From: a virus
Strand: one strand, 5' to 3'
Length of the DNA stretch: 25,994 bases
IMG/VR virus record: IMGVR_UViG_3300020207_000138
Span: 1 to 25,994 of that record
The notes beneath the pieces were generated by a model that saw only the letters and a list, made by a program, of their open reading frames with translations, was not told where the DNA came from and ran no database searches. The stretch's first letter is position 1, and each line of letters starts with the position of its first letter. Made by a program: the position numbers and the translations under genes. Of this stretch, positions 102-13,703 are shown in pieces.

Positions 102-470
102 ATGTTACGAAACCAAATAGAAGAAAACTACCCATTTATCAGTGTAATCACATACGGCGGAAAAGAATACGTTGGTATTGTTGTAAATCAAGATAATAAT
201 ATTACAACAATATTAGATTACTCTATGCTTAAGACTACTGAGGACAAACAATATCTACTAGAGATAGGACAAACATGGTGGATGGAATCAAATAGGTTAA
301 TACCTATTACAATATTCCTAAGCAAAGATGTTGAGCCTATTAGATACTGTTTGAGAAATATGAACAGCAAAGATGTCAATATAGTGCTAGGCCCAACAGT
401 TAATCTGCACAACCTAACACTAAAGAGAGTCAAGAGGAAGAATGTGCAGTTAGTTCGTCGTCCGAAATAA
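102..470 (+). CDS. conserved-looking phage protein of unknown function, 122 aa
   Basis: The protein is 122 residues and has no signal peptide or membrane segment. The first half alternates short hydrophobic strands with turns (residues 13-45, with YGGKEYVGIV followed by a polar turn and TTILDYSML), which suggests a small beta-barrel of SH3- or Sm-like type. The C-terminus is basic (KRVKRKN), which could contact nucleic acid or a partner. The gene is one of only three on the plus strand. Its last 41 bases overlap, tail to tail, the 3' end of the DnaE-like gene. I do not recognise a named family, and the barrel is an inference from pattern only. The start is ATG with a late-like element in front and no good ribosome site. 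Confidence 0.75.
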   Translation: MLRNQIEENYPFISVITYGGKEYVGIVVNQDNNITTILDYSMLKTTEDKQYLLEIGQTWWMESNRLIPITIFLSKDVEPIRYCLRNMNSKDVNIVLGPTVNLHNLTLKRVKRKNVQLVRRPK

Positions 471-1017
471 TTTGCTCACAGAGTAAATTCATATGAACGA
501 CTGTAGCAATTGCGTAAGAAAAGGCATGAGCTTTCTTGAAGTAATAGTCTCCATTGTATGGAGGCTTCCATACTTCTCGGCGTATAGCGTCCCAGCCTTG
601 ATCCGCTAGATACCTTTTGGATGGACGTATGATAGCTAGGACCATTGCGAGTTCTTCGACGCTAGTAGGTTGTAGCTTACGACATAACGGTCCGTGCCCG
701 CTCAAGTGAAATACTTGATTTACAAATTCGTCGTGCTGTAGCAACTCCCACTCTGGCTCTGTATTCATCAACTCATCTAGATGTCCTTCATCTCTAACAC
801 CTTTGTATATATTGACATTCAGAAAGTCTATTTTGAAATAGCCTCTCTCTTCTGCCTGCTTATAGTTTATCGTAGCTTGTCCAGTTAACGGATTCCACGG
901 GATAGCAGTTCCATATATTCCTGTATTGTGTTTAGCTCCGTTCTCTAGTGTTGCTGCACGGTGAGGAATTATATCTAATAATAAATTTCTATCAGCAAAA
1001 TCTATATCCACATCCAC
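430..1017 (-). CDS. miniature DnaE-like (C-family DNA polymerase) palm/fingers protein, 195 aa
   Basis: The protein reads as a cut-down bacterial polymerase III alpha subunit. Residues 2-7 (DVDIDF) match the PDFDVDF block that carries catalytic Asp401 and Asp403 of E. coli DnaE. Residues 29-39 (KHNTGIYGTAI) match its RNAGVHAGGVVI block. Residues 61-66 (FKIDFL) match the block with the third catalytic Asp555. Residues 113-132 (RKLQPTSVEELAMVLAIIRP) match the fingers motif ending in FRPGP. Residues 161-170 match the NKSHAAAYALV segment. The PHP, beta-binding and OB domains are absent, and the palm is much shortened, yet all three Asp positions are kept. The start is GTG just after the HNH stop, with GGGGAAG upstream; the frame is open further back inside the HNH gene. 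It could be an active mini-polymerase, a nucleic-acid-binding relic or a decoy subunit. Family assignment is strong; activity is unknown. Confidence 0.8.
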   Translation of the reverse strand: MDVDIDFADRNLLLDIIPHRAATLENGAKHNTGIYGTAIPWNPLTGQATINYKQAEERGYFKIDFLNVNIYKGVRDEGHLDELMNTEPEWELLQHDEFVNQVFHLSGHGPLCRKLQPTSVEELAMVLAIIRPSKRYLADQGWDAIRREVWKPPYNGDYYFKKAHAFSYAIATVVHMNLLCEQIISDDELTAHSSS

Positions 1018-1018
1018 G

Positions 1019-1516
1019 TTACTTCCCCAATTTTTTAGCCCAACCGGCTCGCATCTTAGCCTTGTCCTCTTCAGTTCGAGGCACTCCTTTATTCCAAGCA
1101 GTCCTGCCTTTATTGGCTTTACTCACAGCATCCTTTACCGCTTGAGATCGAGTCATTCCTCTATTCCAAGCGGGCCTACCTTTTCTCCCGTGCTTTCCAA
1201 AATGTTGATGTGCTTCTTTACGAATAGATTCATATAACTTTGAATTGAAGTTGCCACGCAATCTATTCTTGCTACTTCTAACAAACATCATATTGAATGC
1301 GTATAGCAGTTTGTGCCTTGCTTCTCCTTCATACATTTTAGTTAGCAATAAGTGTGCAATAAAATGTTCTCTAGGTGTTAAAAGAATAAGATTTTCTTCA
1401 TCATCAGAACCTCCTACACATTTGGGAATTATATGATGCTTTTCTAAATAAGTATCTTCTCGAACTGGACGTGATGTCATCAACTCAAAATACCATTTAG
1501 AATATTTACTTTCCAT
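1019..1516 (-). CDS. HNH homing endonuclease with NUMOD3-type repeats
   Basis: The protein is 165 residues. An HNH nuclease core lies at residues 23-60: YLEKHHIIPKC (His27, His28), a GGSDDEENLILLTP stretch with Asn42, and REHFIAH with His51 and His55. The second half has two copies of a short basic repeat, RKGRPAWNRGMTRS (about 111-124) and NKGRTAWNKGVPRT (about 136-149). This is the NUMOD3 DNA-binding pattern of phage homing endonucleases. It is a free-standing gene between deformylase and the DnaE-like gene; its ATG lies 11 bases inside the deformylase 3' end and its stop abuts the next start. Such enzymes cut a homologous genome lacking the gene and so spread. It is probably an optional, mobile insertion in this operon. 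Confidence 0.9.
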   Translation of the reverse strand: MESKYSKWYFELMTSRPVREDTYLEKHHIIPKCVGGSDDEENLILLTPREHFIAHLLLTKMYEGEARHKLLYAFNMMFVRSSKNRLRGNFNSKLYESIRKEAHQHFGKHGRKGRPAWNRGMTRSQAVKDAVSKANKGRTAWNKGVPRTEEDKAKMRAGWAKKLGK

Positions 1517-1997
1517 TTCTCTTACTCGCTTTTTTGGAAGCCATTTTCCATTTTAGTGGTGACACACGATCCTTGAAGCATACTCCTTGTAGGTGATCCC
1601 ACTCGTGTAAGAATACTTTGACAGCATATCCTGTTAGGTGTTGTCGTCGTTGCTCCATATTCTCATCTGTATATTCTACTAGGATTTCTCTAGGGCGTTT
1701 GACTTGAACAAATATGCCAGGGAAGCTCAAGCATCCTTCGTCTTCTAATACAGTATCCTCAGTGTGTTGTAATACTGTAGGGTTGATACAAAGCTCTGCG
1801 TTCTTTGGATCTGCTCCCATAACAAATAGTTGATGATTCAAATCAACTTGGTTGGCGCTAAGTCCAATCCCGTTGTTACTCAGCATTGTATCAATCATTA
1901 TAGCTTTGATCTCTTTAGGATCAAATCCAGGATTAGTGATATCTACCTCAGCAACTTTTGTAGTGAGGATCTCATTTGGGTAATATACTATGTCCAT
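1506..1997 (-). CDS. def: peptide deformylase
   Basis: All three deformylase motifs are present in order: GIGLSANQ at 43-50 (family GxGLAAxQ), EGCLS at 87-91 with the metal-ligand Cys89, and HEWDH at 131-135 with the two His ligands and catalytic Glu132. The enzyme removes the formyl group from the N-terminal Met of nascent proteins and uses Fe2+ or Zn2+. At 163 residues it is near the usual length; the basic tail KKASKRNGK is short. Marine T4-like phages often carry their own deformylase, thought to sustain processing of phage or host photosystem proteins during infection. The start is supported by AGGAG at good spacing. The start overlaps the end of the upstream sulfotransferase-like gene. 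Confidence 0.95.
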   Translation of the reverse strand: MDIVYYPNEILTTKVAEVDITNPGFDPKEIKAIMIDTMLSNNGIGLSANQVDLNHQLFVMGADPKNAELCINPTVLQHTEDTVLEDEGCLSFPGIFVQVKRPREILVEYTDENMEQRRQHLTGYAVKVFLHEWDHLQGVCFKDRVSPLKWKMASKKASKRNGK

Positions 1998-2995
1998 TTA
2001 AAGTCTCCTGTTTTCCAGTTTAGTGAAGGAATAAACACACTTGCTAAATCTTCATTATATCTAAGATAAGTTTTATAAAAGTTTATAGATGGGCTTGGCA
2101 TTGATCTACCATAAAACTCTTCTAGTTTTTGAATTGTCTCTTCTGGGTTAGTTATTATAGATCGATAGTCTACAAATAATATATTAGTAGTATCAGTAAA
2201 TAGTTTTCCAGGATCATCTTTTGTAGTATAATATTCTATAGAAAAAAGATCTATTCTTTCTTTTAAAAGTTTCAGCAATCCTAACTCAAGAGTTTCTTCT
2301 GATAATATCATACGCCAAGCACGATATGTTGTGTATCGTCTCTTAAATCTATATACATCATTTTTTGGTAAGGTTGAAGAATATTGATCTAAAATATCTT
2401 GCCTATCTATATATTTTAAAATAGGATATCTTCTTTCAAGGTAGTTACATACTCTTTTACCTATCTTAATAAATGTTTTATACATTTTTTTGATATCATA
2501 ATATCTCATAATCTCATTAGGTTTATCGCCTAGTTGAATAATCTCATATGGTATTTTGAGTGACGCCTTAGATCTTTTTCGAACATAATCCATTCCATCA
2601 CCCAATTCATTTTTTATAATTCGTAAGAAATTTATTTGAGCAAAATCATCCTCAGTAACGAGCATCTTAATGTAGTTACAGTTTTGAAGATATTTCCCTT
2701 CAGTTTGATTTTGGAAATAAAGTTTGGACTGTTGTCCAATATTATGCCAATAATAAAATTTATAGTCAGGCGATTTATCAATTTGAGATCTCCACTCAAC
2801 TTGATTTATTGGCTGGAAAGGATCTTCTGGATCAAAACAATAATGTATATTATAATGATCCATTTGATGAGCATCGCCTAGATAACCAATGGTATATTCT
2901 GGACTTTCTTGGTACATGCTTGATATTAAAAATAAGAGCATTCTACCACCACCCCCTCCGGGAAAATCTAAATGTGTAGTTTTATACGGCGTCAT
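1988..2995 (-). CDS. sulfotransferase-like protein, copy B of a tandem pair
   Basis: The protein is 335 residues and clearly paralogous to the gene just upstream. The N-terminus has TTHLDFPGGGGGRMLLFLIS (residues 6-25), a glycine-rich loop at the position where sulfotransferases bind the 5'-phosphosulfate of PAPS. A later segment, NYIKMLVTEDDF, and the C-terminal FVDYRSIITNPEETIQKLEE resemble the YEDL...P...I..L..F pattern near the C-terminus of sulfotransferases. No signal peptide is present, so it should act in the cytoplasm. The substrate is unknown; a glycan or peptide tyrosine is possible. DNA here is more AT-rich than in uvsW (13 G+C in 60 bases at 2221-2280 against 31 in 60 at 6601-6660), consistent with separate origin. 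Assignment is by motif only. Confidence 0.6.
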   Translation of the reverse strand: MTPYKTTHLDFPGGGGGRMLLFLISSMYQESPEYTIGYLGDAHQMDHYNIHYCFDPEDPFQPINQVEWRSQIDKSPDYKFYYWHNIGQQSKLYFQNQTEGKYLQNCNYIKMLVTEDDFAQINFLRIIKNELGDGMDYVRKRSKASLKIPYEIIQLGDKPNEIMRYYDIKKMYKTFIKIGKRVCNYLERRYPILKYIDRQDILDQYSSTLPKNDVYRFKRRYTTYRAWRMILSEETLELGLLKLLKERIDLFSIEYYTTKDDPGKLFTDTTNILFVDYRSIITNPEETIQKLEEFYGRSMPSPSINFYKTYLRYNEDLASVFIPSLNWKTGDFKWT

Positions 2996-3974
2996 CTATG
3001 TAACCTGTCCCCCAATTTAATGATGGGAAAAATAATTTTGCAAACTCTTCATTATATTTAAGATAATGAAGGTAAAAATTTTTAGATGCAGGAGGTAATT
3101 TTTTGTTATAAAAATTCTCCAAAGTTTTAATAGTATAATGTGGTTTAGTCATTATGTTTCTAAAATGTATAGGCAATGTATTGTTAGTAGAATGCAATAC
3201 AGGATCAAAAGTAGTTTCAGAAAAATATTTTAGCATTCCATCTTTAGTTGATTTTAAATCTTCATTTGTATGAACTAAGTGATCCTTTATCATCTCTTTT
3301 ATTCCTAAAGGAATATTTTTACTATGTGCTAATATAATTCTCCAAGCTCGATACTGATGCCAGTATTTTTCAAGTCGCCAGATATTTAGCGGCAAAGGTT
3401 CTTTGTAACTGTGAGATAAATCCCATACATCTTGCCTACTCATAGTTCTTATCTTTGGCGAATGCCCCGATAGATGTTTGCTGACTTTTCTACCAATCTT
3501 GATAAACGATTTGTAAATCTCATCTACGTCATACCAATGTAATATATCTGTTGGGTCTGAAGATAAGAAAACTGTTTTCTCTCGAAGTGTTAAACTAATT
3601 GGTTCTTGTTGTTCATGATAGTAAGTTAAAGAATCTCCTATAAAATTTTTTATTATTCTTAGGTAAGCTATCTGCTCAGTGTCTTTGTCAGTCACTACCA
3701 TCCTAACGTAATTACAGTTCTTAATAAGTTCGTGATCGACAGCCCAATCTATATGATGCCACCAATAGAAATCATCTTCTGGCTTTTTTGGTATCGTATT
3801 ATCAGTTTTACGAAAGTCAAGATTGGTACTGTGATGCATATCATGTGCCTCGCCAGCCATACCTATCTTATATAAAGGATGTTTATAATACATACTTGAT
3901 ATTAAAGATAGGAGCATCCTACCACCACCTCCTGCTGGAAAATGTAGATGTGTAGTACGATATCCTTTTCTCAT
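2982..3974 (-). CDS. sulfotransferase-like protein, copy A of a tandem pair
   Basis: The protein is 330 residues and aligns end to end with its downstream neighbour: TTHLHFPAGGGGRMLLSLIS (7-26) against TTHLDFPGGGGGRMLLFLIS, CNYVRMVVTDKD against CNYIKMLVTEDD, LRIIKN in both, YRAWRIILA against YRAWRMILS, and KYNEEFAKLFFPSLNWGTG against RYNEDLASVFIPSLNWKTG at the C-terminus. The glycine-rich N-terminal loop suggests PAPS or nucleotide binding of sulfotransferase type. The ATG sits in an ATGA overlap with the stop of the zinc-finger gene and has GGAAAG upstream; its own 3' end overlaps the next copy by 14 bases. The two have diverged well beyond a recent duplication. An unrelated P-loop-like fold is the alternative. 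Confidence 0.6.
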   Translation of the reverse strand: MRKGYRTTHLHFPAGGGGRMLLSLISSMYYKHPLYKIGMAGEAHDMHHSTNLDFRKTDNTIPKKPEDDFYWWHHIDWAVDHELIKNCNYVRMVVTDKDTEQIAYLRIIKNFIGDSLTYYHEQQEPISLTLREKTVFLSSDPTDILHWYDVDEIYKSFIKIGRKVSKHLSGHSPKIRTMSRQDVWDLSHSYKEPLPLNIWRLEKYWHQYRAWRIILAHSKNIPLGIKEMIKDHLVHTNEDLKSTKDGMLKYFSETTFDPVLHSTNNTLPIHFRNIMTKPHYTIKTLENFYNKKLPPASKNFYLHYLKYNEEFAKLFFPSLNWGTGYIDDAV

Positions 3975-4666
3975 AATTTGCTTTCCTTTATCACCTCTTT
4001 TGCTAAAATAACATCCCTAGATGATTGTGAAAACTTTTTACCCCAATGATCTGGATCTAATATATGATAGATCAGTCCAAGTTGCTCCTCGTTGAATCGT
4101 CCCATCATATCCTGTGCCTGTACAGAGTTTAGTAGTAGCCATGGTGATAGCTTTCCATCTTTGATATGATATACTGCTCTGTTTAGATTTACTAATCTAA
4201 AATAATGATTCCATTGTGCTGGTGGATTCTCAGTTGCCCACTCTGTCATTGTTTGTATGCTACGCTCTAATGCTGTATGTACATCTTCCTTCTTTATAAG
4301 ATCCACAGCATATTTTTCGTATAATGCCTCATCACACCATTTGTCAATCTTTACTCCGCTCATTACGATGTATTCAATATATTTCTCTGGATACAGAGGG
4401 CGGACGTTAGTAACGAATGAACCAAACTTTACAAAGGCATTGTAGTAAGGAGAGTTACAGAACTCCTCATACGTCTTGTCACGTTTGAAGCCTGTGCCTT
4501 TCCTATAGAATAAATTGAATGCGTAAAATCCTGTTTGTACTCTTTTCTCGTCACGTTGCTGCGCTCGTCGTTTCTTTTCGCAAACGTGAACGAGTATTGT
4601 ACTCTCTTTAGAAAAACTTTTCTTACAGTATTCGCATTTGAATCTAGAGTTTGATGTCGATGCCAT
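3971..4666 (-). CDS. zinc-finger protein of unknown function, 231 aa
   Basis: The N-terminus carries a C2HC finger: Cys11, Cys14, His27 and Cys29 within FKCEYCKKSFSKESTILVHV, followed by the basic stretch EKKRRAQQRDEKR. The rest is mostly helical, with aromatic blocks (PYYNAFVKFGSFV, PPAQWNHYFRLVNLNRAVYHI) and no membrane segment. Proteins with this layout seem common in marine T4-like phages, but I know no assigned function. Its position in the operon behind UvsW, beside two other conserved unknowns, points to a role in DNA metabolism or transcription, perhaps DNA binding. The start overlaps the upstream gene by 23 bases and has no clear ribosome site, so translational coupling is likely. 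It is not gp59: no helicase-loader feature can be seen. Confidence 0.72.
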   Translation of the reverse strand: MASTSNSRFKCEYCKKSFSKESTILVHVCEKKRRAQQRDEKRVQTGFYAFNLFYRKGTGFKRDKTYEEFCNSPYYNAFVKFGSFVTNVRPLYPEKYIEYIVMSGVKIDKWCDEALYEKYAVDLIKKEDVHTALERSIQTMTEWATENPPAQWNHYFRLVNLNRAVYHIKDGKLSPWLLLNSVQAQDMMGRFNEEQLGLIYHILDPDHWGKKFSQSSRDVILAKEVIKESKL

Positions 4667-5096
4667 GATTGTCTGCTAGTTCCTGTATATCTTCTTTAGT
4701 TGCCATTTTTGCTAATATGAGTAGCTCGTCCATTTTTTGATTTGGGTATGCCTTTTCAAGAACAGATAGAAACTTGCTGTTTTGTGCATCTAGTTTATCC
4801 TTGCCAGACTTCAATCCAATCCACTCATGGTATTTAATCTTTCCGTAGTCTGCTGACAGACAGAGTAGTTGCCATTGTAGTTTAGGATGCTTTGACATAA
4901 TCATATAATGTTTATTGAAGAACTCGTTAGTCTTCAATACTGCTATCTCAGCGTCTGAACCTTTTACACTAGAAGCATATCTATTTAATAGCCAAAATGA
5001 TACAGACTTTTTCTCCTCATCACTCAGCTCGTCCCATACATTCTTTGCTCCTATATCTACAGCAGCAAGAACATCTTTAACTGGTAGCTTTGCCAT
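4644..5096 (-). CDS. conserved-looking phage protein of unknown function, 150 aa
   Basis: The start chosen is the ATG at 5096, giving MAKLPVKDVLAAVD; a longer frame from a TTG at 5123 would overlap the upstream gene and adds nine unlikely residues. The protein is 150 residues, largely helical and soluble. A central WLLNRYASSVKG segment is followed by HPKLQWQLLCLSADYGK and HEWIG. The NRY plus tryptophan pattern faintly recalls gp62-type clamp-loader small subunits, but gene 44 is not adjacent and the match is too weak to name it. The end runs 23 bases into the zinc-finger gene. The setting between the 168-residue protein and the zinc-finger protein suggests that the three are co-translated. 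Confidence 0.72.
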   Translation of the reverse strand: MAKLPVKDVLAAVDIGAKNVWDELSDEEKKSVSFWLLNRYASSVKGSDAEIAVLKTNEFFNKHYMIMSKHPKLQWQLLCLSADYGKIKYHEWIGLKSGKDKLDAQNSKFLSVLEKAYPNQKMDELLILAKMATKEDIQELADNHGIDIKL

Positions 5097-5100
5097 AATA

Positions 5101-5607
5101 CTATATAAGATTGCAGAAGTCAATAATTTCTGTTTGACGATTTACATCCTTGATGAAGAAAGCACACAATGGATTCTCATCGTCTGTTAGTGGCACCGAT
5201 AGTAACTGCCCTGACTTTATCTTAGGGAAGTACCATTTGATGTCATTGTAAAAGTTAGTTACTTTGATTTCGCCATAGTCTGCTTTGTAGCTCTTTAGAG
5301 GATTGAATAAGAATGCCTCAAAGCCTCTATCATTCAAACTTGTAAGTGGCAGGACTTCTAAGTCCTTGCCTGTGCGGCTATCACCTACAGCAATATGGAA
5401 ATCAATAGGCATCATTACTTCGTGTCCATTGATCTCTAGAACGATAGCGGAGTTGCTAAATGATTCTAAAAAGATAAGAGGCACAAAATAAAAGTCAGGA
5501 TCTGACGGAGTTGAGTTATCTAAAATAGAAAACCTAAAGTCCTCATCAATCTCCTCAGGTAAGTTGTTCAAGTCAAATGATTTATTTTCAAGTGTTAGAA
5601 TTTTCAT
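5101..5607 (-). CDS. conserved-looking phage protein of unknown function, 168 aa
   Basis: The protein is 168 residues and rich in predicted beta strands: YFVPLIFLESFSNSAIVLEI, then HEVMMPIDFHIAVGDSRTGK, LEVLPLTSLNDRGFEAFLFN, IKWYFPKIKSGQLLSVPL and CAFFIKDVNRQTEIID. It has no signal, membrane or metal-binding motif. Its start lies in an ATGA overlap with the uvsW stop, so it is translated with the helicase. Close linkage to UvsW suggests a role in late replication, recombination or the switch to late transcription, but nothing in the sequence shows the function. Confidence 0.75.
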   Translation of the reverse strand: MKILTLENKSFDLNNLPEEIDEDFRFSILDNSTPSDPDFYFVPLIFLESFSNSAIVLEINGHEVMMPIDFHIAVGDSRTGKDLEVLPLTSLNDRGFEAFLFNPLKSYKADYGEIKVTNFYNDIKWYFPKIKSGQLLSVPLTDDENPLCAFFIKDVNRQTEIIDFCNLI

Positions 5608-7067
5608 GTCCAGTCAACCTTTTGTAGTGTAAATGGGTATTGGGCTTGTTTATAAAACTTTTTACGTTCAGTTAAATGACGCTTGGCAAATTTACAAGTA
5701 GATGTGAAGTCCCATATTTGTACAAAGTCCTTGTCCTTTGCTTTGCGGATTCCTCTACCAATAGACTGAATCACACGAACAAATGATTTGCCTGGCTCTA
5801 TAAGAACCAGATTGAATATTCTTGGGATGTTGATGCCTACTGCTGCTACACCATATGTAGCAATAATAACCATGTCGCTCGCATCCTGGACTTCGTCATA
5901 TGTCTCTTTTCGATCTTTTACTTTTACTTCGCCACTGATAAACACTGAGTCTGGCACAAGCTCTTGTAGCTTTTTACCTGCGGATACACGATCCACTAGA
6001 ATGAGTGTGTTACCTGATTGTCTAATATTGATGATCTGGCTAGCCAGATACTCAACTCTCTTGTCGTTAGTAACAAGGTATTTGAGTTCGCTTTGATAGT
6101 CACGATGCTCAACAATGTCTATTAGTTGTTGAATGTTCACGTGACACTGTGATAGCACTCCTTTGTCCTGTAGCTCCTTAGCACTAATAGATCCAATTAC
6201 AGGACCTATGGCAGCGTGGAGTGCTTCAAATTCAAATTTTTCTTTTGGTATAGTACCAGTTAGTCCCCATCGTATGGCAGCGTTCTTTAGGCTTTGTGTT
6301 AGTAGTGCCTTTAGAACATCAGCTTTTGCTTGGTGCACTTCGTCTACAATAATAGTTTGTACACCTTGTAAAAACTCTGCGAGAGTTATTTCTACTTCTG
6401 CGTCTTTGCTTTTCTTTCCAAGGATGTTAAGACTCTGCCAAGTGCATATGGTATGTTTTTTGGCAAGGTCTTTTCGATCACCAAAGTATACGCCGACGTC
6501 CAGCCCGCAGTTTCTGTAATCTTCTTCAGTCTGCTGCACAAGAGATTTGTTTGGTACAATGACAAGTGTTCGTCCATGTTGTTCTGCTATGTGTGAGAGT
6601 GTGGCTGTGGTAATAGTTTTACCTGCGCCCGTAGCTATTTCCTGCAGTGACTGCGGGTTAGCTAAAAAATTATTTATCGCTTCTACCTGGTAGTCACGTA
6701 GTAGTATTTTTTCACCCTCAGCAGGATGTCCTTTGGGCCAGCATACTCCTTGGTTCGCCCAATAGTTCTCTGTAATAGTTGGAAACTGTAAGTCTATTGT
6801 CTGCCGTCTATCATCAATATCTGAGATAGTGTAGTTGTGTTTAGATAGGATCTCTACCACAGTGCCTAGATGATTGACATATCCTGTTCCTCCTATGTTG
6901 AAGAAAGGAACTTTGCCATCCCAACGCCCTAGCTTGTAGTGTGGCGTATGCCTAGCATATGGAACTTCAAACTTTAGAGCGTTTGCTATTTTGCGTCTTA
7001 CATCTACTGGCAAGCCTTCTAACTTGATATTGACTTCGTCTTGTATTACAAGTTTACATGGTTTCAT
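5604..7067 (-). CDS. uvsW: UvsW-type DNA/RNA helicase
   Basis: This superfamily 2 helicase has 487 residues (T4 UvsW has about 500). Motifs in order: RDYQVEAI (Q-like) at 124-131, Walker A ATGAGKT at 145-151, motif II DEVH at 242-245, motif III TGT at 270-272, and motif VI QSIGRGIRK at 434-442. The N-terminal 100 residues carry HYKLGRWDGKVPFF, typical of the small UvsW N-terminal domain. In T4 the enzyme unwinds R-loops and branched DNA and drives fork reversal, shifting replication from origin-dependent to recombination-dependent mode. The ATG overlaps the stop of the upstream 445-residue gene as ATGA. Expression probably comes from the promoter at 8421-8449. Confidence 0.95.
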   Translation of the reverse strand: MKPCKLVIQDEVNIKLEGLPVDVRRKIANALKFEVPYARHTPHYKLGRWDGKVPFFNIGGTGYVNHLGTVVEILSKHNYTISDIDDRRQTIDLQFPTITENYWANQGVCWPKGHPAEGEKILLRDYQVEAINNFLANPQSLQEIATGAGKTITTATLSHIAEQHGRTLVIVPNKSLVQQTEEDYRNCGLDVGVYFGDRKDLAKKHTICTWQSLNILGKKSKDAEVEITLAEFLQGVQTIIVDEVHQAKADVLKALLTQSLKNAAIRWGLTGTIPKEKFEFEALHAAIGPVIGSISAKELQDKGVLSQCHVNIQQLIDIVEHRDYQSELKYLVTNDKRVEYLASQIINIRQSGNTLILVDRVSAGKKLQELVPDSVFISGEVKVKDRKETYDEVQDASDMVIIATYGVAAVGINIPRIFNLVLIEPGKSFVRVIQSIGRGIRKAKDKDFVQIWDFTSTCKFAKRHLTERKKFYKQAQYPFTLQKVDWT

Positions 7068-8401
7068 ATTGTAAAGTAATGATGTCCTGTGAAAAATTCA
7101 TCTGAGTACGTTAAGTTTAAGTCTGCTGATTCTCTAAAAACAGTAATAGTTCTATTAGTAGAGATAGAAGCTCGTAGCATCAATACAGTTCTAGGCCTCC
7201 AACTAGATTCAAGCAGTGGCTTAGGTATTCTCTTTTGCTGATGTAAAAAGATAACTTTAGTGTCCTTGGTTGGTAAATTATTTAGTTCGTGTCTAGTGAC
7301 ATAGTTATTAAATTCACAATCATCTATTGATCTCTTATCCTTGCGATACAAAACTGCCATCTCAGAATTTTTTACATATGATTCTAAATATGTATGTAGC
7401 TTGGCTAGGATAACAATATCAGGAACTGACTCGCCAGGACCTAAGACATGATCAATTCCATTAGCTTGATAGAATGAAACAGACTCGTGTCGAGATAATA
7501 CTGGCATAGATATGAGTAATGGATATCTATCTAGCTCGTGTATGCTTTCAAAAATTTGATCTAGTCCATATATTTTAGATGAAGCAAAGCAAAGATTAGT
7601 AGTTCTCAATAATATATTTTGGCTGACTTGTGTTAGCTTCGCATCGTTTTCTCTACTAGCTTTCAAATCAAAATGAGACAGTCCTAATATACCTGCAGCA
7701 TCTCGATATAAATGTAAGTTGTGCGGTCCTGGTTCGCCAAACTTTTCATGTGCGTATTCAACCACTCGTGGATGAACATTGCGTAACTGATAATCATATA
7801 CACCAGGGCAATGAGTATCACTGTTAGATTGTATTTGACATACCTCATCATAATACTCTAATAGCTGAGGCTCAATATCAAATTCTAAATCTTTGAAGTG
7901 TGTGATAATATCTAATGCGTTGCGTTCGTTTAGTTTGACGAAGTGCGTCTTTGTTTTATTGTCGTACATTTTTTTATCTTGTACAGACTTGATAAAATCA
8001 ATATGCTTTATCATTTTATTAGAAAATGGAAAGCGTATAGCCATCATCTGAGCTTTGATGAGTCCCCCAAACACTGGCACTTCTCGCTCTATTACTTTGA
8101 TAGTTCTTGTTCTATCAATAATACGATATGGGTGACGCAGATGATCCAAGTCTTCTCTAAAGTCAGGATAGCGTGCCTCGAGCCACTCAGAGTATTCAAG
8201 TAGTTTGAGTTTTAGCAGTTCGTGCTGCCGTTCAGTCAAACCCATACCCTTCATAGATTGTCTGTGTAAGCTATAGAATAACTTTTGATCAGGATCTGTT
8301 AGAATTTTTTTATTAGCTGATATAATATCTAAATAATCTTCAATAGTCACTGGGTCCTGTGGTTCGTGAGAATCTACATCCTCTAGTCCAAATGTCATCA
8401 T
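7064..8401 (-). CDS. unknown protein with a HARP-like segment, upstream of UvsW
   Basis: The protein is 445 residues. Residues about 120-180 (MAIRFPFSNKMIKHIDFIKS, then a charged turn, FVKLNERNALDIITHFKDLE and FDIEPQLLEYYDE) follow the pattern of the HARP domain, F-P-[YF]-x(3)-[LM]-I-x(2)-I-K, that precedes the helicase core in SMARCAL1-like proteins and related phage helicases. No Walker A or DExH box is present. The C-terminal half (about 280-445) alternates hydrophobic strands and helices and could be a decayed or accessory RecA-like fold. It is the first gene after the promoter and is joined to uvsW by ATGA, so a helicase partner or branched-DNA-binding role is a reasonable guess. Start: two adjacent ATGs, with AGGTAG upstream. 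Confidence 0.7.
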   Translation of the reverse strand: MMTFGLEDVDSHEPQDPVTIEDYLDIISANKKILTDPDQKLFYSLHRQSMKGMGLTERQHELLKLKLLEYSEWLEARYPDFREDLDHLRHPYRIIDRTRTIKVIEREVPVFGGLIKAQMMAIRFPFSNKMIKHIDFIKSVQDKKMYDNKTKTHFVKLNERNALDIITHFKDLEFDIEPQLLEYYDEVCQIQSNSDTHCPGVYDYQLRNVHPRVVEYAHEKFGEPGPHNLHLYRDAAGILGLSHFDLKASRENDAKLTQVSQNILLRTTNLCFASSKIYGLDQIFESIHELDRYPLLISMPVLSRHESVSFYQANGIDHVLGPGESVPDIVILAKLHTYLESYVKNSEMAVLYRKDKRSIDDCEFNNYVTRHELNNLPTKDTKVIFLHQQKRIPKPLLESSWRPRTVLMLRASISTNRTITVFRESADLNLTYSDEFFTGHHYFTI

Positions 8402-8420: not shown

Positions 8421-8449
8421 ATTATAACAGGTTATAAAATATTTGTCAA
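8421..8449 (-). promoter_or_regulatory. perfect sigma-70 consensus promoter
   Basis: On the minus strand TTGACA (8449-8444) is followed by 17 bases and TATAAT (8426-8421). Both hexamers are exact consensus at optimal spacing. The expected start is near 8414, about a dozen bases before the ATG of the 445-residue gene and upstream of its AGGTAG ribosome site. T4-like early genes use the host sigma-70 polymerase, so this is most simply an early promoter for the 445-residue gene, uvsW and the operon below. The -35 lies inside the last codons of the glycan gene upstream. Confidence 0.88.
8422..8437. repeat. 16-bp palindrome over the -10, possible operator
   Basis: TTATAACAGGTTATAA has perfect 7-base arms with a two-base centre. 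It covers the -10 and the adjacent half of the spacer of the promoter at 8421-8449. A repressor or activator dimer bound here would block or modulate polymerase. It could equally be a by-product of an AT-rich -10 next to TTATAA. The symmetry is seen; regulation is inferred. Confidence 0.45.
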
Positions 8450-9280
8450 TCGTTTTAGTGGCTTACCCGTAGATATTTCTTTCGTAGTCCATTCGGTATA
8501 TGCAAAATCATTCAGCCATTGTCGTCTGTCAGGTGTGTCTGGATTGTTTATATTATTTACATCCAGATTACCCACGCTCCACGCTAGGCTCGAAAAGGAA
8601 GTAAAGAGTGGTATTCCTTTCATTGCTGCTATGATGCCTGGGTTGGAACTCCAATTGACTACGGCGTATGCCTTCTCAACAGTAAAGTCATAGTCATCAT
8701 ATGTGTTAGGAATCTTTTTAGGTATTTGTAGAATAGTGTTGGCAGGTAGGTTTCTCAGACGCATTGGGCATCGTGGATGCTGCCTTACAATAATATTTCT
8801 ATCAGTATGTTTTCTTATTGTAGCTAGTGTATCCATCAGCCATCGCTCTTGATGTTGCTCGTCGTGCCATTGTGCTGACTTATTGTTTTGACAAGCTATG
8901 AGTATAGAACCATTTGTGTTTTGTTTCCATGGATCTAGCTTTAGTCCTAGCTTGTCAGCTCGCTTGCTGTCGTTTGCTCGAGGTCCAAAGTAAGCTGAGT
9001 TATTGACTCCGCCTACTCCCATTTTCCATGTGACATTGCGTTCTATAGCACCTACTTCTAATACTATGACAGGTGTACGATTGCGAGCTGCTCTGTGCCA
9101 TATCTCTTTGTTCTTCAACATTCTACCATGCCAGAGGACGCCCCATATGACATCTACATCTCCTTTGTCGGAGTTATGGTAAACAGTGTAGCCTAATCGT
9201 TTAGCTCCAGCCTCGAAGGCAGCGAATACAGATTTGGAGTTGAGTGCTCCATTATTTGTGTGCAAATTAAATGATTTCAT
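8432..9280 (-). CDS. KpsS/KpsC-like capsule glycosyltransferase, copy 1
   Basis: The protein is 282 residues. It has the two sequence blocks of capsule-synthesis transferases of the PF05159 type: NIIVRQHPR (162-170) and a segment around 206-225, AVVNWSSNPGIIAAMKGIPL, where a Ser/Pro-Gly loop followed by a helix binds the sugar nucleotide. The C-terminal RRQWLNDFAYTEWTTKEI matches DRTDWLQRLAMCHWKMEEL of the paralogue at 10846-11805, so the two are one family. It has no signal peptide, so it should act in the cytoplasm on a lipid-linked or phage-made glycan. The ATG at 9280 lacks a Shine-Dalgarno sequence; TATAAGTA lies six bases upstream. The 3' end overlaps the promoter of the next operon. 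Confidence 0.72.
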   Translation of the reverse strand: MKSFNLHTNNGALNSKSVFAAFEAGAKRLGYTVYHNSDKGDVDVIWGVLWHGRMLKNKEIWHRAARNRTPVIVLEVGAIERNVTWKMGVGGVNNSAYFGPRANDSKRADKLGLKLDPWKQNTNGSILIACQNNKSAQWHDEQHQERWLMDTLATIRKHTDRNIIVRQHPRCPMRLRNLPANTILQIPKKIPNTYDDYDFTVEKAYAVVNWSSNPGIIAAMKGIPLFTSFSSLAWSVGNLDVNNINNPDTPDRRQWLNDFAYTEWTTKEISTGKPLKRLTNIL

Positions 9281-9319
9281 ATTAAATACTTATATATACT
9301 ATATATACAGGAGAAACTG
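9281..9319. promoter_or_regulatory. divergent AT-rich control region between glycan genes
   Basis: This 39-base gap separates a leftward gene (ATG at 9280) from a rightward one (ATG at 9320). It holds an exact tandem repeat of TATATATAC (9291-9299 and 9300-9308). On the minus strand TATAAGTA (9294-9287, 7 of 8 to the T4 late core) would start transcription one base before the leftward ATG. On the plus strand AGGAG at 9309-9313 is a good ribosome site. The plus strand shows TATACT at 9295-9300 but no matching -35. The 11-mer TATAGTATATA on the minus strand here also occurs upstream of gene 32. Confidence 0.4.
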
Positions 9320-10165
9320 ATGACAGACATTCTTGCGGTAACAACTTTCAACAAAGAGGGTTTAGATCTCTATGCTCAAAAGTTCTTAGACACATGGGCA
9401 CAAAATACAGATGATAATATGAAGTTGCTAGTGTATGCTGAGGATTGTGATCCAATCAATCCCGCACCTAGCAAGATTCTAATATTGAATCAACGGGAAG
9501 CATTACCAAAGTTGATGAAGTTCAAAAAGAAATGGGGCAAGGTTCCTAAGGCTAATGGCGAGTGTCCTTTCCCGCACAAGCGTCCTAGGGACTATGATAA
9601 AAAATTCAAATGGGATGCGATGCGATTTGCAAACAAGGTATATGCGGTATTTGATGCTTGTGAAAGAAATACTGGCAAAGGTTGGGTTGTATGGATTGAT
9701 GCTGACATGGTTGTGCATAGTCACTGGAACTATGAACAATATGCATCTCTGTTCCCTTCTGATGTATGGCTAACATATGTAGGCAGAGGCAAAGGATCTC
9801 AGACATGGCCTGAGTGTGGCTTTTATGGGATTGATTGCAAATCCGCTAAAGCACGACAGTTTGTAGCTAATCTTGAATATCAATATGAGAATGCTGAGGA
9901 CGGGATATTCAAATTAGATGAATGGCACGATAGTTATGTGTTTGGCTCCTGCTTAGAAAAATTTATGCGTATGTATCCAGATGTGTTAGATTACAGTGCT
10001 GGTATGTATAGCGTGGCTGTAAAGACTGGTGGGGGAGGACATCCTCTCATCAATGGTGTGTTAGGTACTTGGTTAGATCATCTAAAGGGTGACAGAAAAC
10101 AAACAGGTAAAAGCAATAAAAGAGATCTTATGGTGAAGCGTGGAGAAAAATACTGGAAGTTTTGA
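9320..10165 (+). CDS. GT-A-type glycosyltransferase with DxD motif
   Basis: The protein is 281 residues. After a first strand and helix (ILAVTTFNKEGLDLYAQKFL) it has an acceptor-side region and then GWVVWIDADMV at 121-131, with the metal-binding DAD at 127-129 typical of GT-A enzymes that use nucleotide sugars. It later has a WPECGFYGID segment, and near the C-terminus VKTGGGGHPLINGVLGTWLD, perhaps the acceptor end. No signal or membrane anchor is present. It is one of two plus-strand glycosyltransferases inside an otherwise leftward region, with AGGAGAAACTG before the ATG. The sugar and acceptor are unknown; a phage-modified surface glycan or virion glycan is likely. Confidence 0.78.
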   Translation: MTDILAVTTFNKEGLDLYAQKFLDTWAQNTDDNMKLLVYAEDCDPINPAPSKILILNQREALPKLMKFKKKWGKVPKANGECPFPHKRPRDYDKKFKWDAMRFANKVYAVFDACERNTGKGWVVWIDADMVVHSHWNYEQYASLFPSDVWLTYVGRGKGSQTWPECGFYGIDCKSAKARQFVANLEYQYENAEDGIFKLDEWHDSYVFGSCLEKFMRMYPDVLDYSAGMYSVAVKTGGGGHPLINGVLGTWLDHLKGDRKQTGKSNKRDLMVKRGEKYWKF

Positions 10166-10889
10166 TGTTGTAACAAGTATGAGTCTCGACTATTACAACA
10201 AGGTTGGGACTTATATGATTCAAACTTGGCTGAAGTATTGGACTGGCTTTACTCTTACTGTTTATACAGAAGACACTTTGCCTATAACTGATCCTAGAAT
10301 TACAATCAAGGATGTGAATAATTTAGGATCTGCTTTTCATAAATTCCAAAAAGCAACACATACTAACAGCCGAGCTACTATATTTTCTAAAAAGGCATTT
10401 CCTATTATAGAACATCTCAAGCCTTCTACTGGTTATCTAGTATGGGTAGATGCTGATGTAATCTCAGAAGGTTACATTACACCCCTTTGGTTACACTCTT
10501 TGATAGGGGATGATAGTTCAGATAATATATCTGCTCACTTTGGAGTTCCCCAGCAAGGTTACTATTCTGTAGAGACAGGATTCTTTATAATCAATCGAGA
10601 GCATAGATACAAGCCTATGTTCTATGCAAAGTATCGCAGCATCTATCATCGTCGAGACTTTTCAAATATGTATAAGCCTTTTGATGGAGATTCGTTTGGT
10701 AGAGTTATTCGTGAGTGTAGAGAGTTTGTAGATGACTTTAGCTATAGAGAATTATCTCCAAAGCCAGATAAGATACTAAGCCCATTCAATAATCAAATGC
10801 AAGGAAAACTATGGCATTTAAAAGCAAAGCACAAAGATAAAGACTTTACTTCTTCCCTAAGGTTACATAAGGCTCTTTATCGGAGATAA
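10140..10889 (+). CDS. second GT-A-type glycosyltransferase with DxD motif
   Basis: The protein is 249 residues. The order of features matches the gene before it: FDVVTSMSLDYYNKVGTYMI near the start, then LVWVDADVISEG with DAD at 104-106, then GVPQQGYYSVETGFFIIN, so the two are distant paralogues. The start is GTG at 10140, 26 bases inside the upstream gene, with GGTGAAG upstream. Alignment of DVVTSMS with the ILAVTTF of the neighbour supports this start. The C-terminal 44 bases overlap, tail to tail, the leftward KpsS-like gene. Activity and substrate cannot be read from the sequence. Confidence 0.75.
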   Translation: MEKNTGSFDVVTSMSLDYYNKVGTYMIQTWLKYWTGFTLTVYTEDTLPITDPRITIKDVNNLGSAFHKFQKATHTNSRATIFSKKAFPIIEHLKPSTGYLVWVDADVISEGYITPLWLHSLIGDDSSDNISAHFGVPQQGYYSVETGFFIINREHRYKPMFYAKYRSIYHRRDFSNMYKPFDGDSFGRVIRECREFVDDFSYRELSPKPDKILSPFNNQMQGKLWHLKAKHKDKDFTSSLRLHKALYRR

Positions 10890-11805
10890 ATTGTTTCATA
10901 TGTCGCCAAGCATCGCCATTGCGTAGCTCTTCCATTTTCCAATGACACATAGCTAATCGCTGTAGCCAATCTGTTCTATCAAATGTTTGTGGAGACTCAA
11001 TAGTAGATAAATCTGTATTGGCTACAGCAAATGCTTGGCTAGTCTGTGGAATTGGATCTGTAACATACAGAGGTACTCCTTCAATAGCACTGGCTACACC
11101 TGGACTAGAATTGTATGTTATTGTAGCCCATGCTTTTTCAAAATCCTTTTTGATACTTTTGTTGTTAGATATTTTATGCTTTGTCTCTCGCAAATATCTA
11201 TGAGCGTGTTTGTCTCCTGGATGAGCTCTTACAAGTATGCCTCTGTCTGTATGCTTGCGGATCTCTTGAACTGTTTGATGAATCCAATCTACAACAGACA
11301 GTCCTTTCATACTCCAACCTTCGTTGCGTTGGCAACATAGTAAGATGTAACTTCCTAACTTACGCCATGGCTTTACTTTTATATCTAAATCTGTGGATAT
11401 CTTATCCCAGCGTGTCTCATCTACAATAGTATCAAAATAGTTAGCAGTAGTTGGAAATACTCCGCCCATGCTAAAACGATGATACATCATAGGGTGTAAC
11501 TTATCTACATTGTAACCAAACAGGTTACTATCAATAACAATAAGATTTTTATTATCGTCTTGTTGTCGTTTTATAATACTACGACGAAAATTTAGATGAG
11601 GAGTTCTTGAGGAATTCTCATGCACCCAGCCTTGTAATACAGCAACATCAACTGGGACGGGGCGATTATATCTAGAGTCATAAATTTTGCCAGAGTCTTT
11701 ATTAGCATTGACTCCTTTGATAAAATTTATGAGTAAGTCTGCTTTGTGACTTCTACGGGCAGATGGAGGTATTGAGTTGATGAAGGCACAAACAGTGGTT
11801 TTCAT
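10846..11805 (-). CDS. KpsS/KpsC-like capsule glycosyltransferase, copy 2
   Basis: The protein is 319 residues and is a paralogue of the protein at 8432-9280. Shared blocks are ILLCCQRNEGWSMKG (154-168) against ILIACQNNKSAQWH, EIRKHTDRGILVRAHPGDKH (181-200) against TIRKHTDRNIIVRQHPR, and ATITYNSSPGVASAIEGVPL (227-246) against AVVNWSSNPGIIAAMKGIPL. The His-Pro and Ser-Ser-Pro-Gly blocks are the expected nucleotide-sugar site. Its start overlaps the stop of the 238-residue glycosyltransferase as ATGA, so the two are coupled. It probably adds a sugar to the same glycan as its neighbours. Confidence 0.72.
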   Translation of the reverse strand: MKTTVCAFINSIPPSARRSHKADLLINFIKGVNANKDSGKIYDSRYNRPVPVDVAVLQGWVHENSSRTPHLNFRRSIIKRQQDDNKNLIVIDSNLFGYNVDKLHPMMYHRFSMGGVFPTTANYFDTIVDETRWDKISTDLDIKVKPWRKLGSYILLCCQRNEGWSMKGLSVVDWIHQTVQEIRKHTDRGILVRAHPGDKHAHRYLRETKHKISNNKSIKKDFEKAWATITYNSSPGVASAIEGVPLYVTDPIPQTSQAFAVANTDLSTIESPQTFDRTDWLQRLAMCHWKMEELRNGDAWRHMKQFISDKEPYVTLGKK

Positions 11806-12518
11806 TTATCAACAGTGTCCTTGATGGTAAATTCTCTCTCCATTAGTTGTTGATACTCATCCTTCCAAACATCTGATAAGTCCTGCATAAAATAGTTTTT
11901 GAACCAAGGCCCGCCTTCTGTATAGTGTATTAGCTTTGGTGATCCATCGTGTTTGTAGTAGTGCCCTACAAGCCAGTTCCATTCGTGATGCAGTTCGCCT
12001 ATCTCATCATCCTGCAGCCAATTGAAACGATGGAAGTATCCACCATCTTTAGATGGGTCACTAATAAGTTCCTTAGTCAAAACTTTATTAGAAGGATGCT
12101 CACAGTTGAACAACATTACCGAGGACCAGTTTTTGCGTGGATATACAGTTTGTAGTCTGCCATCCATTTTAGTTTGGCTGAGTGGTGTGTAGTCGTGCTT
12201 CACTACCATTACAGCATACTTGTCGTCAGCTAAATCAAACAGTTCGTTCAAGTCAGTTTGTAATAGCGTATCACAATCAATAAACAATGCCCACCCTCTG
12301 TAGTGTGTTAGCGCAGGTACTAGAAATCTAGTAAATGTAAATTCAGTAGATGATAATCTATCTATTGGACGCCAGTACCAGCCTGACTTCTCTAACATTG
12401 TTTTCTTAATTGGATATACAGTAGCGCCAGGTGTTCGTGTTAGAATGCTATGGCGACATACTTCATATGCTAAGTCCTCTCTTGGATCATAGCCCACATA
12501 AATTTTTAAATCTCTCAT
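11802..12518 (-). CDS. GT8-like glycosyltransferase
   Basis: The protein is 238 residues. The N-terminus is a Rossmann-like strand, LKIYVGYDPREDLAYEV. Next comes SSTEFTFTRFLVPALTHYRG (57-76) and then WALFIDCDTLLQTD, with DCD at 81-83, and later NWSSVMLFNCEHP. This order of TxFxxxRFLVP, DxDxL and N-[WS]-S-[VS]-[VM]-x-[LF]-[FW]-N is typical of GT8-type transferases. A C-terminal LIHYTEGGPW block with His is the expected metal ligand region. It overlaps the pyruvyl transferase 3' end by 32 bases and has no clear ribosome site, so coupled translation is likely. Confidence 0.85.
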   Translation of the reverse strand: MRDLKIYVGYDPREDLAYEVCRHSILTRTPGATVYPIKKTMLEKSGWYWRPIDRLSSTEFTFTRFLVPALTHYRGWALFIDCDTLLQTDLNELFDLADDKYAVMVVKHDYTPLSQTKMDGRLQTVYPRKNWSSVMLFNCEHPSNKVLTKELISDPSKDGGYFHRFNWLQDDEIGELHHEWNWLVGHYYKHDGSPKLIHYTEGGPWFKNYFMQDLSDVWKDEYQQLMEREFTIKDTVDK

Positions 12519-13248
12519 AAAACCGTTTGTTTAGATCTCTACATTCTTCCAAGTATGTAGGATGGATATACATAGTGTCATTGGACACATCATTGATTGA
12601 CTCTAACATTACAGGCGTATATTTAAAAGTTTTGAACTTTGTGCTCCACGGCACTACTTGAACATTCCTGCCAAGTAGCATAGCCCAATAGGCTCCGTGA
12701 TAGCTAGTAGTTACTACAGTTTCGCCTGAAGCTAAAAAGCGAATAATATTATATATGTCTTTTGCCTTGTTAGTTAGTACAGGTGCATCTACATCTGGCT
12801 TTTCTTTTCTTGCGTGTAGATAATATACTTTGTCATGCTTTATTTCATAAGGATTATCAAATGCTGGATGCATACAAGTTACACACGGAACATATTCGCC
12901 AATGCCTATATTGTTAGCATCTCGCAAACCAATCATATCAGCATTGCCAAGCCATTCAGGATATCCTCTGTCCTTATTTACATCATAATTGGTTCCAATA
13001 CCCCAGACTACGAGTTTTGCGGGTTGCTGTTTTACAATAAATTCAATATTCTCTGTGAACGTTGGATGTATCAAACCACCTCCTCCTATAACAACAATCT
13101 TACCCTCGGCATCAGTTACTTGATATCTTGGATTATCTTGAAGTTGAATAGGACAAGTCTTGGCAGAAAAATCTGCAAAGTATCTGCTAGGGTTACAGTA
13201 AAAGTCTCCTGCGTTGCCTCGATGCTGTCTATGAAATTCGTAAATCAT
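12487..13248 (-). CDS. polysaccharide pyruvyl transferase family protein
   Basis: The protein is 253 residues. It has the family pattern: RGNAGDFYCNPSRYF near the N-terminus, IVVIGGGGLIHPTF with the GGGG loop at about 54-57, VVWGIGTNYD, MIGLRDANN, and SGETVVTTSYHGAYWAMLLG, where the conserved SYHG is the late motif of this family. These enzymes transfer pyruvate ketals from phosphoenolpyruvate to sugars of exopolysaccharide or cell-wall polymers. The start overlaps the uvsY stop as ATGA, which ties the glycan cassette to the recombination operon. The family call is good; the acceptor sugar is not known. Confidence 0.86.
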   Translation of the reverse strand: MIYEFHRQHRGNAGDFYCNPSRYFADFSAKTCPIQLQDNPRYQVTDAEGKIVVIGGGGLIHPTFTENIEFIVKQQPAKLVVWGIGTNYDVNKDRGYPEWLGNADMIGLRDANNIGIGEYVPCVTCMHPAFDNPYEIKHDKVYYLHARKEKPDVDAPVLTNKAKDIYNIIRFLASGETVVTTSYHGAYWAMLLGRNVQVVPWSTKFKTFKYTPVMLESINDVSNDTMYIHPTYLEECRDLNKRFYERFKNLCGL

Positions 13249-13703
13249 AATGTTGCGTCCTCCATACCTGCTACTCTTAGTTTAGTAATGTTAGTAATTT
13301 GCCATTGCTTCTGATCTAAGCCTTTCATAACGCCTAGCCATTTATTACGAAGCAGTGCAAACTCATTTATGATATGTTCAAAATCAACAACATCAGGTTC
13401 ACCATCTACATATTTTTCTACATCTCTACTAGACAGTGCTCGCTGATAATTTTCTAAATATTTTTTAAAGAATGAGGATCTTAGTTTGCGAAGTTCTATG
13501 TTTAGGTAGTTGAGAATAGCCTCAATCTCTTGTAACTGATTGAACCTATGCTCAACTATACCTGGAAGTTCAGAACTAGCTTTTTCAAGTGAGCCTCTCA
13601 GCTTACACTCCATACGAGCTTGTGCTAGTTCTGATTCAAAGTGTTGAATAGCATTAGGTATAGAGTTTACGTCTCTAGTAACACTAGAGTACCATCCTGC
13701 CAT
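13245..13703 (-). CDS. uvsY: UvsY-type recombination mediator
   Basis: The protein is 152 residues; T4 UvsY is 137. It is mostly helical and charged. The C-terminal third (ALSSRDVEKYVDGEPDVVDF, then NEFALLRNKWLGVMKGLDQK and QWQITNITKLRVAG) fits the conserved C-terminal block of UvsY-like proteins in marine T4-like phages. In T4, UvsY forms hexamers, binds gp32-coated single strands and loads UvsX. Gene order is consistent: gp32, uvsX, a 70-residue gene, uvsY. The ATG follows the previous stop by two bases. No nuclease or ATPase motif is expected or seen. Confidence 0.85.
   Translation of the reverse strand: MAGWYSSVTRDVNSIPNAIQHFESELAQARMECKLRGSLEKASSELPGIVEHRFNQLQEIEAILNYLNIELRKLRSSFFKKYLENYQRALSSRDVEKYVDGEPDVVDFEHIINEFALLRNKWLGVMKGLDQKQWQITNITKLRVAGMEDATL

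Follow-up and report, generated by a model that had tools for sequence, protein, structure and literature searches.

The C-terminal subunit of a probable split minimal DNA polymerase III alpha in an uncultured viral contig

The locus and its conserved neighbours

The window analysed here is a 25,994-nucleotide stretch of an uncultured viral contig. The features at and around the open reading frame of interest (hereafter the C-gene) are given below. Counts of neighbouring genes refer to a set of 59 sequences, made up of 58 loci and the window, with one locus identical to the window, and these counts are limited by contig ends.

102-470, plus strand: convergent small ORF (phrog_11637) that overlaps the 3′ end of the C-gene; 54/59 sequences, 5/6 named phages
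430-1017, minus strand: probable C-subunit of a split minimal Pol III alpha (phrog_11778), 195 aa with a GTG start at 1017; assigned from its profile match, conserved residues and model
1015-1017, minus strand: GTG start codon of the C-subunit, read from the sequence
1019-1516, minus strand: HNH endonuclease with a NUMOD3 motif (phrog_655, E 1.7e-43), stopping one base before the GTG of the C-gene
1506-1997, minus strand: peptide deformylase (PF01327, E 3.5e-40), recurrent cargo at this slot; 28/59 sequences
1988-2995 and 2982-3974, minus strand: a tandem pair of paralogues, each about 330 aa long; the first matches a sulfotransferase below threshold
3971-4666, minus strand: C2H2/C2HC zinc-finger-like protein (phrog_11058, E 2.5e-60); Pfam zinc-finger matches are below cut-off
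4644-5123, minus strand: conserved neighbour phrog_11758; 52/59 sequences, 5/6 named phages
5101-5607, minus strand: conserved neighbour phrog_11279; 15/59 sequences (a count limited by locus length), 5/6 named phages
5604-7067, minus strand: UvsW-like helicase at the head of the block (cluster 15), named from an earlier sequence-only reading of the window and from the like position in RaK2 and PAC2

The genes most often found around the C-gene in the neighbourhood set are, on one side, a 155-aa gene (52/59) followed by the C2H2-like gene (57) and, after the C-gene, a 124-aa gene in convergent orientation (54), a 264-aa gene (50) and a primase (43). These neighbours also adjoin the C-gene in five of six named phages; Slickus01 shares the primase only. 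The C-gene block is common to marine contigs, RaK2, the PA5oct relative PAC2, Atu_ph07, Phosso and a Vibrio phage, and in both RaK2 and PAC2 it is preceded by UvsW. The location of the C-gene within a block conserved in marine contigs and named phages bears out the earlier view that this gene is not simple cargo. Beside UvsW in the window is a 445-aa ORF (7064-8401, minus strand) for which neither PHROG (at E 0.01) nor Pfam (at E 0.1) gave a match. Between this ORF and a UvsY-like gene (13245-13703), the replication/recombination block contains six further genes (8432-13248), two of which have Pfam matches, to glycosyltransferase family 8 and to polysaccharide pyruvyl transferase.

With respect to the genes immediately upstream, the phrog_11058 gene is the most constant upstream neighbour of the C-gene (57/59 sequences, 5/6 named phages); the C2H2 profile found no counterpart in the Slickus01 locus (L285). 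Its C2H2-like product is a candidate partner of the C-subunit. The gap between these two genes is 60 nt or less in 12/57 sequences and 2,957 nt in the window, with variable cargo in between, which in the window consists of the two paralogues, the peptide deformylase and the HNH/NUMOD3 endonuclease. Among the 59 sequences, the tandem sulfotransferase-like paralogues were seen in the window and its sister only, and the HNH cluster in four, counting the window and its identical sister. Both domains of the HNH ORF score above cut-off (PF01844, 27.6 bits against 21.4; PF07460, 25.7 bits against 20.4). A Shine-Dalgarno-like GGGGAAG is located within the 3′ end of the HNH gene, 4 bases upstream of the GTG of the C-gene; a pattern of this kind precedes 36/58 C-genes, although it is loose and proves little. 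The HNH gene would be a mobile passenger, behind which the C-subunit appears to have kept its start signal.

Family, catalytic residues and missing parts

The 195-residue C-protein matches the phrog_11778 'DNA polymerase' family with an E-value of 8.3e-63 (residues 1-185 against positions 7-197 of 197). A relationship to DnaE, for which a profile search had been proposed as a check, was also recovered with phrog_405, a family of full-length C-family polymerases (residues 49-134, E 5.3e-7). Matches to the Pfam finger domain (sub-threshold at E 0.071 and 12.9 bits, cut-off 22) and to TIGR00594 (NCBIfam, Pol III alpha; E 0.11) were weak, and PF00136 (B-family polymerase) gave no Pfam match at E 1. 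Because phrog_405 matched all 14 control genomes, archaea included, weak phrog_405 matches were used only alongside PF07733, which matched 10 of the 14, all bacterial. The ORF is a real gene and, judged from its sequence, encodes a palm/fingers fragment of a C-family (DnaE-like) polymerase; the motifs quoted for it in the sequence-only reading are all present.

A survey for the same short form by tblastn identified relatives in 63 of 50,697 phage records. Where lengths were known, 57 of 61 such records exceed 284 kb (RaK2, K64-1, GAP32, CBB, 121Q, PA5oct and kin, Atu_ph07, Phosso and others), and the window C-protein shares 33-50% identity with its counterparts in the listed named phages. In viral contigs, relatives are encoded by at least 592 of at least 599 pattern-matched stretches. 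From these matching stretches, 80 were taken as the C-loci set, which provides 58 distinct proteins, the window's own sequence among them, once identical ones are removed.

When the window protein is aligned to E. coli DnaE (2hnh), the E. coli counterpart reads P400-D401-F-D403-V-D405-F and then K553-F-D555, as counted along the printed alignment. Window residues D2, D4 and D64 correspond to D401, D403 and D555, which are the catalytic residues of DnaE. The retention of three catalytic aspartates that had been claimed for the window is thus found throughout the family: D2, D4, D6, H30, G33, K62, D64, R131, P132, K161 and H164 are invariant in 58/58 distinct C-proteins, and no homologue that has lost the Asp residues was present among them. 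D6 represents a fourth invariant Asp. Even the C-protein of Slickus01, the most distant member seen, retains the DVDID, MKVDIL, IRP and FKKSHA blocks. The parts recognised in the window protein are accordingly the catalytic palm half (D2, D4, D64), the base of the fingers (I130-R131-P132) and the FKKAHA helix.

The 195-aa ORF does not have the single-chain architecture of DnaE (PHP, thumb, full fingers, beta-binding and OB parts). The PHP, beta-binding and OB regions are absent, as had been stated earlier, but that list was incomplete, since the N-terminal half of the palm with its GS motif, most of the D403-D555 stretch and the RRAMGKK part of the fingers are missing as well. Specifically, the 152 residues from D403 to D555 in E. 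coli compare with 60 from D4 to D64 in the window protein, and the 119 from R639 to K758 with 31 from R131 to K162 (alignment counts). These shorter spans indicate that the thumb, presumably at about residues 433-509 of E. coli, and the R709-R710-A-M-G-K-K segment of the fingers are gone. The RRAMGKK segment contacts the incoming nucleotide.

These absences also bear on an earlier suggestion that the protein is a decoy, competing with host DnaE for its partners, which draws on the homology to DnaE only. The window protein ends at about E. coli residue 785 and the PHP region is absent; the clamp- and tau-binding regions of DnaE presumably lie beyond this residue, and the PHP region presumably binds epsilon. 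Going by these locations, no clamp-, tau- or epsilon-binding region is left, and the gene is deeply conserved in a phage replication block. We infer that a decoy role is highly improbable.

The N-terminal half and the cut through the palm

When PF07733 was searched over the whole records of four named phages and contig G002, one further small ORF was found in each. These additional ORFs match the 260-position profile only within positions 18-98; the five N-proteins first examined are 169-185 aa in length. The two that were scanned (RaK2 and G002) match phrog_11127 'DNA polymerase'. A second PF07733 match in G002, below cut-off at E 0.0012, falls in its C-gene region. The N-gene is located about 11 kb from the C-gene in Slickus01, about 33 kb in RaK2, where three genes separate it from the gp44 clamp-loader gene, and about 224 kb in Phosso. 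The notion of a self-sufficient tiny polymerase consequently does not hold; the palm is cut in two, and its other half is a separate gene in relatives.

In terms of the cut itself, the N-parts stop 33-42 residues past the first G of GRGS in 78/80 loci, the other two having no pattern match. The GRGS motif is invariant in 73/73 aligned N-parts; this alignment kept 73 of the 78 motif-bearing loci, and alignment A2 comprises 33 of these 73 and five others. On the C side, a start codon is present 0-5 codons ahead of the point where the match begins, and an in-frame stop occurs no more than 35 codons upstream, in 80/80 C-loci. By alignment, the N-part ends at E. coli L392/N393 and the C-part begins at M399-D401, with only five or six E. 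coli residues covered by neither. These positions place the cut within the palm, in the loop that joins its GS half to the DxD strand.

Two other relationships between the parts were considered. That N and C are duplicates of one another was rejected on a profile-profile probability of 0.3%. The DnaE of cyanobacteria has a split intein, and an arrangement of this type was judged unlikely here, since the ORFs stop and start at the palm edge, with no more than 42 residues past GRGS in the N-parts and no more than 35 codons ahead of the DxD strand in the C-parts.

The same boundaries speak to the origin of the C-gene, which could be envisaged as a recent fragment, the tail of a larger dnaE broken by insertion of the HNH gene that abuts its start. 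Homing endonucleases do split phage polymerase genes. A split PolB with an HNH-bearing intein is described for MIJ3 in a passage of PMC6892783. Nonetheless, the start residue is the same in 80/80 loci, yet the HNH cluster is present in only 4/59 sequences; moreover, the N-half is located elsewhere in related genomes, and the PHROG family profile itself has 197 positions. A fragment made by HNH insertion was rejected on the basis of these shared gene boundaries and the rarity of the cluster, and we find it scarcely credible.

Predicted structures of the two proteins, modelled singly with AlphaFold2, are consistent with adjacent halves of one palm. The window C-protein was modelled from a 53-row alignment (six rows were dropped, and the window replaces its identical sister) with a mean pLDDT of 83.5, falling to 63-67 in the blocks that hold both active-site strands and the stretch 21-30. 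The N-protein of G002 was modelled from 34 rows with a pLDDT of 91.0. In Foldseek, the twelve best matches each for N and C were chains titled DNA polymerase or Pol III, at E-values that were all 0.001 or higher (0.0036 for N and 0.061 for C). On re-alignment, N residues 79-185 correspond to E. coli 279-393 (2hnh; Z 10.7, rmsd 2.8, 100 residues), the best match being 5lew at Z 12.9. C residues 2-185 correspond to E. coli 403-781 (2hnh; Z 8.6, rmsd 5.6, 179 residues), again with 5lew best (Z 9.1) and a C match rmsd of 5-6. C-family polymerases make up 14/14 re-alignment rows for N and 14/17 for C, and the first non-polymerase row for C has Z 3.0. By the tool's own caution, a Z under 8 (under about 13 for helical folds) can stem from a common arrangement. 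The C match is thus modest by itself, and more weight is given to the finding that N and C align to the same chains in neighbouring stretches.

With regard to co-occurrence, 61 accessions were identified for the 63 C-records, and 59 of them are also among the 60 N-records. Of the two exceptions, OQ508957 (Slickus01) was found to hold an N-gene by profile search (E 7.8e-18), and in PP728206 (109 kb, marked UNVERIFIED and classed as Alcyoneusvirus, of which the member RaK2 has 346 kb) the N-gene was not found. Conversely, the N-record OP752703 is not among the 61 identified C accessions. In viral contigs, 20 of 80 N-bearing ones were tried, and a C-gene was present in 6/6 of those of at least 200 kb and in 0/14 of those shorter. 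A search of 25 C-bearing records for N gave five with N, two with a one-piece ORF only (described below) and 18 without; these 18 comprise 17 contigs below 150 kb, the window among them, and G001 (the contig of locus L031, 261.8 kb). G001 has a C-gene, and neither an N-gene nor a B-family polymerase match was found in it; it may be incomplete, or it may represent a lineage that lost both. N and C are nearly always together in large records, G001 excepted.

The N-half was not found in the 26-kb window or in five sister contigs (18.9-49.6 kb), and for this reason we infer the pair in the window's virus from its relatives. N-bearing contigs do occur in at least three of the five metagenomes of the sister contigs (3300023110, 3300023175 and 3300023178), with several different N sequences, none of them assignable. 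A separate B-family polymerase, which the earlier reading had expected of such phages, was found in 5/9 and 9/10 related records; the second set includes LR756508, which has the one-piece form, and G001 was negative in both. Slickus01 (OQ508957, locus L285) is a 141-kb circular phage with both Pol III halves, its C-gene near a clamp-loader gene, and it also carries a B-family polymerase in two frames.

The presence of a B-family replicase in relatives, together with extreme reduction and no known activity, would fit a catalytically dead remnant of Pol III with a structural or regulatory place in the replisome. Set against this are D2, D4, D64 and K62 in 58/58 C-proteins and GRGS in 73/73 aligned N-parts, as well as the persistence of the Asp motifs in Slickus01. 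A dead remnant thus appears quite improbable.

Proposed function and comparison with known systems

Sequence and predicted structure put the strand with the catalytic aspartates at the N-terminus of the window protein. The product of the C-gene is probably the C-terminal subunit, binding metal and template, of a split minimal Pol III alpha that would serve as a distributive auxiliary polymerase. The N and C chains would assemble into one Pol-beta-like palm, in which the GRGS of the N-subunit would hold the triphosphate and D2, D4 and D64 of the C-subunit would hold two metals. The pair would transfer nucleotides distributively, as an auxiliary to the B-family replicase gp43, with gap filling, primer-patch repair or bypass as potential roles, and other proteins of the replication block might bring the split polymerase to DNA. 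Distributive action is proposed because the thumb, the RRAMGKK segment and the PHP, beta-binding and OB parts are absent; ordinary processive synthesis without a thumb and RRAMGKK is doubtful.

The loss of the thumb and RRAMGKK also makes an untemplated transferase the strongest rival. According to this alternative, the pair would not be a DNA polymerase but a nucleotidyltransferase without template direction, engaged in tailing, end-labelling or the modification of nucleotides, which would be compatible with palm catalytic elements in both parts. We consider it unlikely, as the finger-block residues R131-P132, K161 and H164 of the C family are invariant and the C-genes adjoin primase and recombination genes. 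An auxiliary polymerase is preferred because the residues at the finger base are retained, as is the location amid genes for primase, helicase and recombination.

A more speculative proposal, possible but in our estimation also unlikely, is that the C-half, the N-half and the C2H2-like protein constitute a three-part enzyme, in which the zinc-finger protein would replace the lost thumb and clamp contacts. Having no RRAMGKK fingers, such an enzyme would differ from conventional polymerases and be a new split nucleotidyltransferase of the Pol-beta fold acting on phage replication/recombination intermediates. A polymerase core of the replicative type that is severed within its active-site fold, and that many phages maintain as two unlinked genes, offers a natural test of how small a working C-family polymerase can be and of the possible origin of such enzymes, and the defined gene boundaries and constant neighbours make a two- or three-protein reconstitution testable.

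The form is not as unexplained as the sequence-only reading supposed, since passages of Iyer et al. 2021 (PMC7824862) already predict that group 2.2 jumbo phages have a split minimal Pol III alpha, and the window is a further member of this type. Four points were not seen in those passages of PMC7824862, namely the exact cut, the loss of RRAMGKK, the pair in a 141-kb phage and the constant C2H2-like neighbour. Elsewhere, the Atu_ph07 paper lists gp316 as a gene for Pol III alpha and gp671 as one for epsilon (PMC6102473), and the relevant part of a survey of marine jumbo phages gives PF07733 in 51.9% of cluster PGC_A (PMC9123017), which would correspond to the N-part. The main text of the RaK2 paper contains neither 'polymerase III' nor 'dnaE' (PMC3622015). 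Full-text literature searches found no biochemical test of the N and C pair.

In comparison with bacterial DnaE (E. coli 2hnh, M. tuberculosis 5lew), the window protein shares the order and identity of the palm and finger-base motifs, the Asp triad and the predicted fold. Unlike DnaE, it has 195 aa, compared with 1160 in the E. coli chain 5fku, it begins inside the palm, and the predicted enzyme consists of two chains. T4 gp43, a B-family enzyme with an unrelated palm fold, is the replicative polymerase of the same kind of phage, and the window protein differs from it in having no PF00136 match.

One-piece DnaE-like ORFs of 554-556 aa were also observed in contigs G005 (L090:541-2208, minus strand) and G016 (L190, L203), both of which carry a split C-gene too, and a 575-aa frame of this type is present in the 484-kb uncultured phage LR756508. 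In contrast to the split form, these hold both palm halves in one chain. In Pfam, the G005 ORF matches PF07733 and, likewise above cut-off, the finger domain but no other domain, and it contains an RRAF-KK helix at the site of E. coli RRAMGKK that the window C-protein lacks. Against the 549-aa one-piece ORF of G005, the N profile gave a probability of 87% and the C profile 16%.

The closest known counterpart is the split Pol III alpha of Iyer et al. (PMC7824862; PHROGs 11127 for N and 11778 for C), as described in the passages cited. The window C-subunit belongs to the same family, and the system has the same division into two genes, for NTP-binding and Mg/template-binding parts, with the N-gene seen in relatives of the window. 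Those relatives likewise have a B-family polymerase and T4-type replication genes alongside. Unlike the named phages, the window is an uncultured viral contig with an HNH gene, a deformylase gene and two sulfotransferase-like genes as insertions ahead of the C-gene.
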